Below are positions 14,337 through 51,838 of a stretch of DNA of 64,000 bases, one piece after another. The stretch's first letter is position 1; every line of letters starts with the position of its first letter. Both the position numbers and the translations under genes were made by a program. Origin of the DNA: Trichlorobacter thiogenes (GTDB lineage: Bacteria; Desulfobacterota; Desulfuromonadia; Geobacterales; Pseudopelobacteraceae); the NCBI RefSeq assembly GCF_900167465.1, contig NZ_FUWR01000001.1, positions 241,269-305,268 of the forward strand, read 5' to 3'. The notes beneath the pieces are model-generated. The model was given only the letters and a program-made list of their open reading frames with translations. It searched no databases and had not been told where the DNA came from.

Positions 14337-16115
14337 TTGACTGAAAAACAGGACACCATACCAAGCCACACCACCCCCGAAGCCTGGCTACGGCAACAGG
14401 CCCGCAGTGTCAAAGGCAGTATGCTGACCGCGATCCTGGCCGCCTTTATCGGTGGTCTGCTGATTATCCTGCAGGCCCGGTTGCTGGCCACTGTCTGCCA
14501 GCGTGCTGTAATTGAGGGGTTTGGCCTGGCTCCGTTGCTGCCGTTGCTGGCATGGCTGGGTCTGATCGCCCTGCTGCGGGGCTTGGCCGCCTATCTGAGC
14601 GAACATGCAGCGATCAAGGCAGCAGCACAGGTCAGACAGCAGGTCCGCACTGCCCTGTACCAGCGGCTGCTACTGCTGCGTCCGACCGGTATGGCTGGCG
14701 AAGTGGGGCCGTTGACCGAGGTGGTGACTGCCGGAGTGGAAGGTCTTGAGGCCTACATTGCCCGTTTCCTGCCCCAGATGGTGCTGGCCGGTCTGTTACC
14801 ACTGGCAGTGCTGCTAGTGGTGCTGCCGTCAGAATGGCGCTCCTCACTGGTGCTGATCTTCTCGGCACCGTTTATCCCGCTCTTGATGGTGCTGATCGGC
14901 AAGGGGACCGAAACCCTCAACCGCCGCCAGTTTGCCCGGCTTTCCCGCATGGCAGCTCATCTGCTGGATCTGGTGCAGGGGTTGCCCGACCTGAAGATAT
15001 TTGGCGCTGCCAAACGGGAGGCAGAGCTGGTTGCGCAGGTTTCGGACCAGTATCGGGTCGGCACCATGGCGGTGTTGCGGGTGGCCTTTCTGTCGGCCTT
15101 TACCCTGGAATTCTTCTCAACCGTGGGCACGGCAGTGGTGGCGGTGATCATCGGTTTCCGTCTGCTGGCTGGAAACCTGTCCCTGCTGGATGGCTTGTTT
15201 GTACTGTTGTTGGCACCGGAATACTACCTACCGCTACGCAACCTGGGGCTGGCCTACCACAGCCGGATGAACGGTATGGCTGCGGCTGAACGGATTATTC
15301 CGTTGCTGCAACAAAAAGATCTTTTGCCACAGAGGTCACAGAGGAACACAGAGGAAGAAATCAATACCGATACTTATTCACCTCTTCATTCCTCTGCGAA
15401 CCTCCTCGTCCTCTGCGGTGAGTCCATTGAGGTTGTTTGCACATCAGTCAGCTTCCGTTACGGGGGTGATCGTGGCGGGGTACAGGATATCTCGCTGACC
15501 ATCCCGGCAGGCAGCATGGTCGCCCTGGTGGGTGCCAGCGGCAGTGGTAAATCCACCCTGGCCCGACTACTGCTGGGGCTGGCCCAGCCGGAATCCGGGC
15601 AGATCACCGTCAATAACATTGACCTTGCACAGCTGGATCAGGCTGCCTGGCGTTCACAACTGGCCTGGGTGCCGCAACAGCCGTTCTTCTTCAGTGCCAC
15701 TATCCGGGAAAACCTGCTGCTGGGCAGGCCCGATGCCGATGATCAGGCGATCCAGCAGGCCCTGGCAGCTGCAAGCCTGACGGGAGTGATCAACGCACTG
15801 CCGGAAGGGCTGGCAACCCGCTTGGGTGATCGCGGGGCTGGACTGTCCGGTGGTGAACTGCGACGTCTGGCCCTGGCACGGGTCTTTCTGCGGGATGCCG
15901 GCCTGGTAGTGCTGGATGAGCCGACAGCCGGGCTGGATGCAGACAACGAACAGCTGGTGCTGGATGCCATGGAGCGGCTAGCTGCTGGACGGACAATGCT
16001 GATCATCAGCCACCGCGAGGCCACCATCAGCCGCTGTCAACAGGTTGTGGTGCTGGCAGCAGGCAGGCTGGAGCAGGTCACCACCTCCCAGGAGTATCTG
16101 GAGGTGACAGCATGA
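14337..16115 (+). CDS. cydD: ABC exporter CydD (thiol exporter / cytochrome bd assembly)
   Basis: One half of the CydDC heterodimer, a membrane ABC transporter that exports cysteine/glutathione and is needed for cytochrome bd maturation. About 330 residues of membrane domain precede a nucleotide-binding domain with Walker A GASGSGKSTL near 398, signature LSGGELRR near 503 and Walker B LVVLDEPTAGLD near 522. The start is TTG at 14337 with AAGGGA upstream. Odd: residues about 329-363, in the linker between the two domains, are encoded by a dispersed palindromic repeat inserted in frame. Its stop overlaps the cydC start by four bases (ATGA). cydA and cydB are not in the window. Confidence 0.92.
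   Translation: MTEKQDTIPSHTTPEAWLRQQARSVKGSMLTAILAAFIGGLLIILQARLLATVCQRAVIEGFGLAPLLPLLAWLGLIALLRGLAAYLSEHAAIKAAAQVRQQVRTALYQRLLLLRPTGMAGEVGPLTEVVTAGVEGLEAYIARFLPQMVLAGLLPLAVLLVVLPSEWRSSLVLIFSAPFIPLLMVLIGKGTETLNRRQFARLSRMAAHLLDLVQGLPDLKIFGAAKREAELVAQVSDQYRVGTMAVLRVAFLSAFTLEFFSTVGTAVVAVIIGFRLLAGNLSLLDGLFVLLLAPEYYLPLRNLGLAYHSRMNGMAAAERIIPLLQQKDLLPQRSQRNTEEEINTDTYSPLHSSANLLVLCGESIEVVCTSVSFRYGGDRGGVQDISLTIPAGSMVALVGASGSGKSTLARLLLGLAQPESGQITVNNIDLAQLDQAAWRSQLAWVPQQPFFFSATIRENLLLGRPDADDQAIQQALAAASLTGVINALPEGLATRLGDRGAGLSGGELRRLALARVFLRDAGLVVLDEPTAGLDADNEQLVLDAMERLAAGRTMLIISHREATISRCQQVVVLAAGRLEQVTTSQEYLEVTA
15323..15424. repeat. CTCTGCG-family palindromic repeat inside cydD, copy 2
   Basis: About 102 bp with left blocks CACAGAGG...CACAGAGG and right end CCTCTGCGGTGA, matching the intergenic copy at 18441-18564. 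Length near 34 codons keeps the cydD frame open and adds a Ser/Thr/Glu/Leu-rich linker with no likeness to CydD relatives. Confidence 0.8.
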
Positions 16116-17752
16116 GAGAACTGCTACGGATGCTGAGGCCTGCCAGACAACACTGGCGCTGGATGGCTGGCGGCATCGGGCTAGGTGTGGCGGTCATCGC
16201 TGCCAATGCCGCCCTGATGGCGATCTCCGGCTGGTTCATCGCCTCCATGGCTGTGGCCGGGGTTACCCAGGCCTCCTTTAACTACTTCTTTGCCTCAGCC
16301 TCCATCCGTGCCCTGGCCATTCTGCGGGCTCTGGGTCGCTATGGCGAGCGGCTGGTGACCCATGAGGCAGCCTTCCATATCCTGGCTTCGTTACGGGTCT
16401 GGCTGTTTAAGCGTCTGATTCCACTGGCACCGGCCGGGCTTGAAAGCTACGCTGGCGGTGATCTGGCCGGTCGGCTGCGGGCCGATGTTGACAGCCTGGA
16501 AAACCTCTACCTGCGGATTATTGCGCCGATTTTCACCGGCGGTTTAACCATCCTTTTGGCTGGGCTGTTTGTGTTTGCCTGGAGCGGTTCAGCAGCCCTG
16601 GTGTTGGTGACACTACTACTGCTGGCCGGACTGCTACTGCCGCTGCTGGCACGTCATCTGGCTGCACAGCCGGGCAAACGCTCAACAGAACTGGCCGGGG
16701 CGCTGCGCACCACGATAACGGAAGGGCTGCAGGGGGCAGAAGAACTGCTGCTGCTGGGGGCAACCGATAAACAGGCCCAGACGGTTGAGACGCTGTCCAG
16801 CGGTCTGGTGCAGCAACAGGTCCGGCTGGGGCAGATCAGCAGCCTAACCCTGGCCGGTGTCACCACCTGTGGTGCTTTGGCCATGGCTGGCCTGGCCCTG
16901 GTCTGTATCCCGCTGGTACAGGGGGGGCAGCTGACAGGCCCGAATCTGGTGATGCTGCTGCTGTTCAGCGCTGCCTCCTTTGAGGCGGTTGGCCCACTGG
17001 CCCATTCACTGCAACTGATCCCTGCCACCAGTGAGGCGATCCGTCGGATTCGGGAGCTGGCTGATGCACAGGTGCCGCTGCTAGAACCGCTGCAGCCCCG
17101 AACACCGGAGTCATGCAGGATTGTGCTGGATCAGGTCAGTTGCAGCTATGGTGGTGGGCAGGCAGTGCTGGAGCAGTTCTCGCTGGCCATCAATCCAGGT
17201 GAACGGGTGGCGGTGGTGGGCCCCAGTGGTAGCGGTAAATCCACCCTGATTGAACTTCTGCTCCGTTTCCGCCCCTATCAAGGCAACATCAGTATTGGTG
17301 GTTGTGAACTGCGTGACATTGCACCGGATCAGCTTGCCGGGCTGGTTGCCGCAGTGCCGCAGCAACCGCACCTGTTTAACAGCACGATCCGGGAAAACAT
17401 CCTGCTGGGACGTGAGATTACGGATGAGCAACTGACTGCTGTCCTGTCTGACAGTGGCCTTGAACAGTGGATCGCCGACCTGCCCCAGAGGCTGGACACC
17501 CCGGTGGGTGAAACCGGCAGCGCCGTGTCCGGTGGCGAGGCGCGGCGGATCGCCCTGGCCCGCGCTCTGGTAACGAATGCGCCGATCCTGCTGCTGGATG
17601 AGCCAACCGAAGGGCTGGATGGCGCTCTTGAGCAGTCTGTGGTACAACATCTGACAGATCGCTTGCAGGGCACCACTGTGCTGGTGGCGACCCATCGACC
17701 GGCCTGTCTGGCACTGGCCCAGCGGGTAGTACGGATCGGCAAAACGATTTAA
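16112..17752 (+). CDS. cydC: ABC exporter CydC
   Basis: The partner of CydD, 546 residues. A membrane domain with several hydrophobic helices (first pair at about 20-60) is followed by a nucleotide-binding domain with Walker A GPSGSGKSTL near 370, signature VSGGEARR near 472 and Walker B ILLLDEPTEGLDG near 491. It overlaps the cydD stop, so expression is coupled. Unlike CydD its inter-domain linker is of ordinary composition, which makes the repeat in CydD stand out. Confidence 0.92.
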   Translation: MRELLRMLRPARQHWRWMAGGIGLGVAVIAANAALMAISGWFIASMAVAGVTQASFNYFFASASIRALAILRALGRYGERLVTHEAAFHILASLRVWLFKRLIPLAPAGLESYAGGDLAGRLRADVDSLENLYLRIIAPIFTGGLTILLAGLFVFAWSGSAALVLVTLLLLAGLLLPLLARHLAAQPGKRSTELAGALRTTITEGLQGAEELLLLGATDKQAQTVETLSSGLVQQQVRLGQISSLTLAGVTTCGALAMAGLALVCIPLVQGGQLTGPNLVMLLLFSAASFEAVGPLAHSLQLIPATSEAIRRIRELADAQVPLLEPLQPRTPESCRIVLDQVSCSYGGGQAVLEQFSLAINPGERVAVVGPSGSGKSTLIELLLRFRPYQGNISIGGCELRDIAPDQLAGLVAAVPQQPHLFNSTIRENILLGREITDEQLTAVLSDSGLEQWIADLPQRLDTPVGETGSAVSGGEARRIALARALVTNAPILLLDEPTEGLDGALEQSVVQHLTDRLQGTTVLVATHRPACLALAQRVVRIGKTI

Positions 17753-18440: not shown

Positions 18441-18564
18441 TTTACCGCAGAGAGCACAGAGGTTCGCAGAGGAAAGCTGAAACGCAGATATAATTATAAA
18501 CGACAGGCTATTTACTGTTTATTTAAATAATCCTCTGTGTTACTCCGCGTCCTCTGCGGTGAAC
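18441..18564. repeat. CTCTGCG-family palindromic repeat, copy 3
   Basis: About 124 bp with left end ACCGCAGAG...GCACAGAGG and right end CCTCTGCGGTGAAC. It lies between two convergent genes, six bases from the stop of the minus-strand gene, and matches the copy inside cydD. Confidence 0.8.
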
Positions 18565-35251: not shown

Positions 35252-35418
35252 CCTAGAAAAGCAGTTGCACGCGGAGGCGCGGAGACGCGAAGAATAAAAT
35301 ATTTAGTTACGGTATGTTACTGTTTCATCTGTAGGGTTATTCCTTGTTTTCAGGTAACTACTTGATTTTCTCCGCGAGCTTCGCGGCTCCGCGTGAGTAA
35401 CTGCCGTTTTCAGGATAA
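35252..35418. repeat. Palindromic repeat family B, copy 1
   Basis: About 167 bp, near-identical over its full length to 43087-43256. Left arm has GCACGCGGAG, right arm CTCCGCGAGCTTCGCGGCTCCGCG, then GTGAGTAACTGCCGTTTT. It separates the MATE gene from the convergent yheU-type gene. Confidence 0.88.
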
Positions 35419-43086: not shown

Positions 43087-43256
43087 CCTAGAAAAAGCAG
43101 TCGCACGCGGAGCCCCGGAGACGCGAAGAGTAAAATCGTATGGTTACGGCATGTTATTGTTTCACCTGCAGGGCTGATCCTTGATTTTAGGTAACTACAT
43201 GATTTTCTCCGCGAGCTTCGCGGCTCCGCGTGAGTAACTGCCGTTTTAAGGATAAC
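43087..43256. repeat. Palindromic repeat family B, copy 2
   Basis: About 170 bp, near-identical to 35252-35418 in the same orientation, with arms rich in CGCGGAG / CTCCGCG. It fills most of the 240-bp gap between the hypothetical gene and the convergent btuD. Confidence 0.88.
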
Positions 43257-48127: not shown

Positions 48128-48248
48128 CCGCTTCCATTTTAAGGCGCTGGCTGCGTTGGCTTCGTCGTCGGCTTCCTCAACGTACTTTGTAGTACGCCTT
48201 CGTCGCCTCCTCCTTGCCGTCTTGCCATCATCCTTAAACTGAAAACGG
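48128..48248. repeat. Palindromic repeat family C, copy 2, within the btuB riboswitch
   Basis: About 121 bp with 17-bp imperfect inverted ends (CCGCTTCCATTTTAAGG on the left, complement of CCGTTTTCAGTTTAAGG on the right). Its core matches the element at 23211-23335 in opposite orientation. Confidence 0.85.
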
Positions 48249-48365
48249 AACTGACTTGGGTTGGACGTTCGTTCCCTTCACGGCTGCGGGGCAGCGGGGG
48301 CATTTAACCCCTCTTCCTCAACTCCATCTGTTGTGAAAATAAACTATGTTTGAAGCATTAACAGC

Positions 48366-48553
48366 TTAACGCAGAGATGCAGAGCTGCGGAGATGCAGAG
48401 AAAAATCAATAAAATTGTATAACTTTTCTGGTTTGACGGCTTAATTCCTTAAACTTTATGTTTCTCTCTGCGAACCTCTGTGTCCTCTGCGGTGAACGGT
48501 TTTTATAGGATGCTTTTCTCTGTGCCTCTGTCCCTCATGCCTCTCTGCGTTAA
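48366..48553. repeat. CTCTGCG-family repeat, large composite copy
   Basis: About 188 bp with outer ends TTAACGCAG / CTGCGTTAA and an internal CCTCTGCGGTGAACGG end like that of the 18441 copy, so it looks like two copies nested or fused. The right end covers the stop codon of cbiZ. Together with the split riboswitch it accounts for nearly all of the 653-bp gap 47897-48549. Confidence 0.8.
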
Positions 48554-51571: not shown

Positions 51572-51592
51572 GTGTTGCCTCCCCCGAAGCCT

Positions 51593-51772
51593 ACGAATGG
51601 AGCGGTGTTCCGGCTCAGGGCGACCTACTTGCCCGCCTTCCCAGGATAATATCCCAGTGGCTGTACCCTCCCCGGAACTGGGTTGGGTTGGACGTTCGTT
51701 CCCTTTACGGCTGCGGGGCAGCGGGGGAATAGCTCTATAACAAGCGGCACCCCTCTTCCGCGCTTCCATTCG
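51593..51772 (-). promoter_or_regulatory. Cobalamin riboswitch (compact)
   Basis: On the minus strand the conserved series CCCCCGCTGCCCCGCAGCCG, GGGAACGAACGTCC, CAGCCACTGGG, CTGGGAAGGCGG and GAGCCGGAACACCGCTCC lies in about 180 bp, the usual length for the element. It follows cbiE by 66 bp and precedes the 26-codon ORF, dehydrogenase, TrpD-like gene and cbiZ. High adenosylcobalamin is expected to reduce expression of these genes. Confidence 0.92.
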
Positions 51773-51838
51773 GTTTTTGAAATGATCGGCAGTATGGTTA
51801 GCCTTTTTAGCGTGAAAAAGCAAGCCCTGCAGCGGGGG

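Follow-up and report, generated by a model that had tools for sequence, protein, structure and literature searches.

How does a repeat that is dispersed mainly between genes come to be translated inside a conserved transporter, and is it kept there because it is useful? This question is raised by the 64,000-nucleotide stretch analysed here (the window, G000:C29:241269-305268), which is part of a 3.57 Mb draft genome. A preliminary description had proposed that about 102 bp of its cydD gene, at 15323-15424, resemble an intergenic element at 18441-18564 and are read in an open frame, giving some 34 foreign residues in the linker between the membrane and ATPase domains. The cydD gene (14337..16115, + strand) encodes an ABC half-transporter of 592 aa (TIGR02857, 598.2 bits for a cut-off of 435), in which Pfam places the membrane domain at residues 30-285 and the ATPase domain at residues 383-531. 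A partner half-transporter of 546 aa with ABC_membrane and ABC_tran domains is encoded beside it (16112..17752, + strand); it is taken to be cydC from this position, and the two genes are kept adjacent in the relatives compared.

The repeat, called element A in the following, was aligned from 10 full copies of the window's own genome, among them the window copies that begin at 15323 and 18441; the aligned copies measure 85-140 bp. A has an inverted-repeat (palindromic) architecture and forms a hairpin; its two arms, each of about 30 bases, consist of CACAGAG/CTCTGTG-like units and enclose a variable loop. The consensus fold contains 20 pairs, three of which carry two-sided changes in the 10 copies, most clearly the outermost pair (AU in five copies, GC in four and GU in one). 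Both window copies are full-length matches of one covariance model, the cydD copy at 15323..15423 (+ strand, 86.7 bits) and the intergenic copy at 18441..18564 (+ strand, 103.6 bits), and the likeness first noticed between them was thus confirmed. A third copy, of A or of a close cousin, lies outside long open reading frames at 48364..48497 (60.5 bits on the - strand, 52.1 bits on the + strand). In the cydD copy, the alignment and the consensus fold place the 5' arm at 15326..15355 and the 3' arm at 15390..15419, on either side of an inter-arm loop (15356..15389) that varies between species; all three lie on the + strand. As the cydD copy had helped to build the covariance model, a separate profile was made from the nine other aligned copies, and this leave-one-out profile matched the cydD stretch with E 4.6e-16 (- strand) and 1.1e-15 (+ strand) over 130-131 model positions. 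Read in frame, the copy gives CydD residues 330-363, which lie between the membrane domain and the ATPase domain. As this 101-bp copy has two stop-free frames out of six, an open frame is by itself unremarkable.

A is a genome-dispersed and mostly intergenic repeat. A blastn search of the own genome gave 28 matches of the family (E<=1), a count that includes the query itself and at least one chance-looking match (C7:14201). The covariance model gave 71 matches on both strands (E<=0.01), equivalent to 41 distinct places, so that the genome-wide hits expected for the element were indeed found. Model matches were also present in 11 of the 15 genomes of the genus (E<=0.001) and in 59 of the 76 family genomes searched (E<=1e-6, with stricter filters). 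A described Rfam family was ruled out by a search of the window, in which A matched none at the gathering score and the only match was a cobalamin riboswitch (51584-51800, - strand, 56.3 bits). Like MITEs, A is short, has terminal inverted repeats and codes for no mover of its own. Neither a clean empty site nor a target duplication was found at the two places compared, the cydD linker and 18441-18564, both of which show replacement. The search for a mover consisted of a count of Y1 transposases in the own genome and identified none for A. This count comprised 28 Y1_Tnp matches. Most of them are fragments located where contigs end, suggesting that an element of the IS200/IS605 type is present in many copies; one Y1_Tnp frame of 119 aa, at C17:17902-18150, is a candidate mover of the repeats.

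To what extent the CydD linker departs from its usual state can be seen from the orthologues. CydD was matched in 58 of 147 genomes, and 50 proteins were aligned, the own one included and the rows of G034 and G004 incomplete. When the leave-one-out profile was run on the 50 CydD genes, only three carried A, those of the own genome, G011 and G009, and the next match had an E of 2.9. Outside the genus (35 CydDs), 31 proteins have a compared linker span of 52 residues, two have 53 and one has 62 (G021), and in one (G034) the span is truncated. The three A carriers have spans of 73 (own), 78 (G011) and 77 (G009) residues; in the rest of the genus the span is 65 in G014 and G001, 79 in G007, 52-56 in eight genomes and incomplete in G004. 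The nearest plain relative, G005 (91.0% identical outside the linker), has 52 residues against the 73 of the own CydD. Its linker reads PLPDAAGGQLVVPFRAPEI where G011 reads PLPTKDLL...LCGESVEI, and the own CydD additionally lacks PLPT. Since the linker is plain in most CydDs, the A insert is a derived gain, lying in frame inside a conserved gene whose orthologues mostly lack it. About 12 native residues were replaced, for a net gain of 26 residues in G011, 25 in G009 and 21 in the own protein. The foreign residues of the preliminary description are therefore real, but the exact gap of about 34 residues it expected at 329-363 is not; a clean 34-residue insertion is ruled out by the linker alignment, which shows replacement. 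Orthologues with the same residues encoded by different DNA, which it had named as the sign of ordinary protein evolution, were not seen among the aligned CydDs: the residues of the non-carriers differ, and the three carriers share the DNA and both junctions. That both junctions are common at the DNA level supports one common gain.

A is not the only repeat in this linker, which has been used by at least two, probably three, repeat families. The linkers of G014 and G001 contain a second dispersed repeat, B. Besides the linker itself, G014 contains a further, 97% identical copy of this DNA, and the own genome contains one as well; counting both strands, five genomes have 11-15 matches each, and G001 has two, including its own cydD linker (81%). 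In G014, a right flank of the plain type (IPEI) stands beside the B element. For the arms of the G007 linker (C), short dispersed matches were obtained in G007 itself and in all five of the other genomes searched. The G007 linker scored 19.7 bits with the A model (E 0.007 in 20 kb), which found nothing at the G014, G001 and G005 loci, suggesting that C is probably a distant cousin of A and B probably a separate family. In total, repeat-bearing CydD linkers were found in 6 of the 15 genomes of the genus, which is taken to be Trichlorobacter; cydD was the starting question, and the count of repeats in this gene is biased accordingly. The screen of other CydD linkers used the A profile, and none of the 34 complete linkers outside the genus shows a comparable expansion.

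The structure of CydD predicted by AlphaFold from an 18-sequence alignment (mean pLDDT 78.3, pTM 0.64) has a pLDDT below 50 at residues 1-7, 118-123 and 327-358. The last of these stretches corresponds to the insert and lies between a helix that ends at 325 and a strand that starts at 366. This fits a flexible loop at residues 327-358, although low confidence is also common where a sequence occurs in few relatives. The E. coli CydD chain of solved structures (7zd5_D) matched with E 3.7e-94, its alignment showing gaps in the insert stretch.

From these data we consider it likely that the repeat entered a tolerant linker once, in the ancestor of a tight species group, and persists there as a near-neutral, longer disordered loop. 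A non-autonomous, hairpin-forming interspersed repeat, MITE-like or REP-like, would have entered the cydD linker a single time, presumably by transposition, in that ancestor and in a stop-free frame. About 12 native linker residues would have been lost at entry or later, and the two CydD domains would have been kept, joined by the longer disordered loop. The retention of both domains suggests that selection let the insert stay, in a protein that would still be made and working. The other repeats found in the linker of other lineages would be explained if this linker is among the few sites of a conserved gene that tolerate 13-27 extra residues with little harm.

The history of the locus is, however, complex. 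In a tree of four segments (rlmI, the two cydD parts outside the linker, and cydC, part of which is missing for G014), the own sequence groups with G014, and the AU test rejects trees in which the A carriers are united (p 0.00035-0.00057). The tree of cydD alone, outside the linker, has weak inner support (41-74), and split counts within cydD conflict in all directions. Two other genes of the window were left unused: in one, the G014 match is 65% identical over 1-1071 of 1175 residues and is perhaps not an orthologue; in the other, neither G009 nor G014 gave a match that reached the threshold. With the clade of A carriers rejected, a single gain requires that the linker was subsequently lost or exchanged, and the simplest reading would be that A was gained once and that close species then lost or swapped their linker alleles. 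At the intergenic place 18441-18564, between the same two flanking genes, A is present in the own genome and G009, and another sequence in G011 and G005. The latter sequence begins GTACGAGGA and may be a further repeat, which would make this a site occupied by different repeats in different relatives.

These same observations bear on a different account, in which repeats target or copy into this stretch of cydD and the linker alleles are then swapped between close species. Three observations speak for such a mechanism: repeats of at least two families, and probably of three, occupy this one linker in 6 of the 15 genus genomes, the A carriers do not form a clade, and 18441-18564 shows a like pattern. 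However, B is also found inside other genes, no common target sequence was noticed, and tolerance alone predicts that long linkers would be used repeatedly; we regard this account as unlikely. Another reading, also unlikely, is that the interdomain linker of CydD is a recurrent acceptor site in the genus. Native linkers would have given way, in different lineages, to dispersed repeats of at least two and probably three families, close species would have exchanged them, and the repeat resident in a given linker would set its length and sequence. If this were true, with targeting or selection on length behind it, it would represent a new kind of variable protein segment, located in a transporter of respiratory-chain assembly.

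Single entry into a tolerant linker, which we favour, does not by plain neutrality predict how similar the arms are in two of the carriers. In cydD, the own and G011 arms differ at 2 of 81 nt and at no synonymous position, while the body of the gene has 142 synonymous codon differences in 549 codons; among 3000 comparison windows, three were as low in nucleotide differences and one in synonymous differences. The loop, in contrast to the arms, differs in 7 of 10 comparable codons. The arms of G009 differ by 14 nt from both the own and the G011 arms, an ordinary number, with as few differences in 2179 and 1995 of 3000 windows, respectively, and again no difference is synonymous (0 of 3000 windows in each comparison). 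In all three carrier pairs the differing arm codons are thus nonsynonymous, a pattern opposite to the mark left by protein-level constraint. We read the arm likeness as arising at the DNA level, whether by conversion with other copies, through structure or by local exchange, and do not take it as evidence of a useful peptide.

The preliminary description had gone further and spoken of domestication, meaning here that the insert would be kept because its peptide or its mRNA hairpin is useful, for example through linker length or through a pause of translation between the domains. Its frame is open in three species, the own and G011 arms are nearly unchanged, and the A DNA hairpin folds better than shuffled sequences (z -2.37, 1 of 200 shuffles being as good). 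Nevertheless, besides the nonsynonymous arm codons and the divergence of G009, the loop is largely changed between the own genome and G011, the region is disordered in the predicted structure, G005 has a plain linker and G014 has another repeat in its place. Domestication therefore seems improbable to us, and the earlier proposal holds for entry into genes, by A in cydD and by B in several genes, while a selected function finds no support. Finally, although linker sequences vary among CydDs, an origin by ordinary protein evolution with a chance likeness to the repeat is practically ruled out by the full-length match to the profile built without the cydD copy (E 4.6e-16) and by the 47 other CydD genes, where nothing scored better than E 2.9.

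How often such repeats are found in genes was examined for both families. For A, 101 copies or A-like copies from ten genomes were considered, including 39 of the 41 own places (C27:29162, C19:27475, the G007 matches and the weaker genus matches were left out). At least one stop-free frame is present in 67 of the 101, and 13 open frames extend at least 40 codons past both ends: the three of CydD and ten others. Nine of these ten frames have no Pfam match; in the tenth (L204), a NamZ_N domain begins 58 residues beyond the repeat, so that the repeat probably lies upstream of the start of that gene. Only the three orthologous cydD copies of the 101 lie inside a recognised protein domain layout, indicating that entry of A into genes is rare. 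For B, 41 copies outside cydD were considered (five weaker places being left out), of which five lie in recognisable proteins. Two are in one PfaB/FabA-like protein of the own genome (L252:2-1699, G000:C35) and one in its G009 counterpart (L279, G009:C138), of similar arrangement; this protein has no Pfam match and shows below-cut-off matches to PfaB/acyltransferase and FabA models, with the B repeats between them. One separates the two domains of MurG in G005, and another follows the MmeI target-recognition domain of an MmeI-like protein of G009 (L272, G009:C256). Six further open frames run through B, five without a Pfam match and one (L243) with a phosphopantetheinyl transferase domain, which was left out of the count as the domain lies more than 100 residues after B. 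So far, the in-gene repeats fall between or after domains.

Translated palindromic repeats are already known from Rickettsia and Geobacter, and the cydD case is another instance. The Rickettsia palindromic elements, described as 105-146 bp long and translated in 19 reading frames, with one host enzyme shown to be made and active, resemble A in being palindromic repeats found both between genes and in frame inside conserved proteins (PMC2229807). They differ in host and presumably also in sequence; moreover, A is in one gene here and B in a few. In Geobacter, of the same bacterial family as the host of A, translated repeats were reported in 2009-2010, for G. bemidjiensis and G. metallireducens, in the latter as multicopy sequences 'even within genes'; as far as their descriptions go, these families, which include heptanucleotide and octanucleotide repeats, do not look like A (PMC2996986, PMC2700814). 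The in-frame MITEs described in enterobacteria and Coxiella are, like A, short non-autonomous inverted repeats that add coding sequence (PMC2759123, PMC5896051). However, the Coxiella insertions reported in genes of known function are at 3' ends (PMC5896051), whereas A lies in the middle of a two-domain protein. REP sequences, moved by REP-associated tyrosine transposases, are also dispersed palindromes and mostly intergenic according to their description (PMC2817692), but A exceeds them in length and consists of a variable loop flanked by arms of about 30 bases each. Among the titles and abstract openings listed by searches of open-licence literature, none deals with repeats within cydD or with repeats of Trichlorobacter.

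What may surprise a specialist is that one linker has been used repeatedly. The case as a whole documents, in nature, how mobile repeats add coding sequence to a conserved membrane transporter, since close relatives display the plain linker, other repeats at this position and common junctions. It provides a ready test of the length to which the linker of an ABC transporter can be extended, and of whether repeats like these are passengers or are kept. For annotators it is also a warning, as similar peptides in unrelated proteins can be repeat DNA and not a domain.

Several minor observations were made on repeats of this kind. In the MmeI-like protein of G009 (L272), a second stretch besides B is rich in LPxGEGxGEG and, judged by eye, looks like another translated repeat. 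At contig ends of the own genome, an insertion sequence with a protein starting MGKNLFIGIDVSK was found in six copies (L305-L310). Each of the six begins 1-3 bases past a CTCTGTG that lies in the 3' arm of an A-like or C-like hairpin. From its motif, we take this insertion sequence to be IS110-like. Insertion sequences that target REP elements have been described (PMC1525189). Within the window, a two-copy repeat at 35257-35418 and 43093-43255 (about 90% identity), with ACGCGGAGGCGCGGAGACGCGAAG-type arms and CTCCGCG on the 3' side, is probably a further hairpin family related to A and C. In addition, a 58-bp near repeat of part of the cobalamin riboswitch is present at 48246-48303, 93% identical to 51673-51730.
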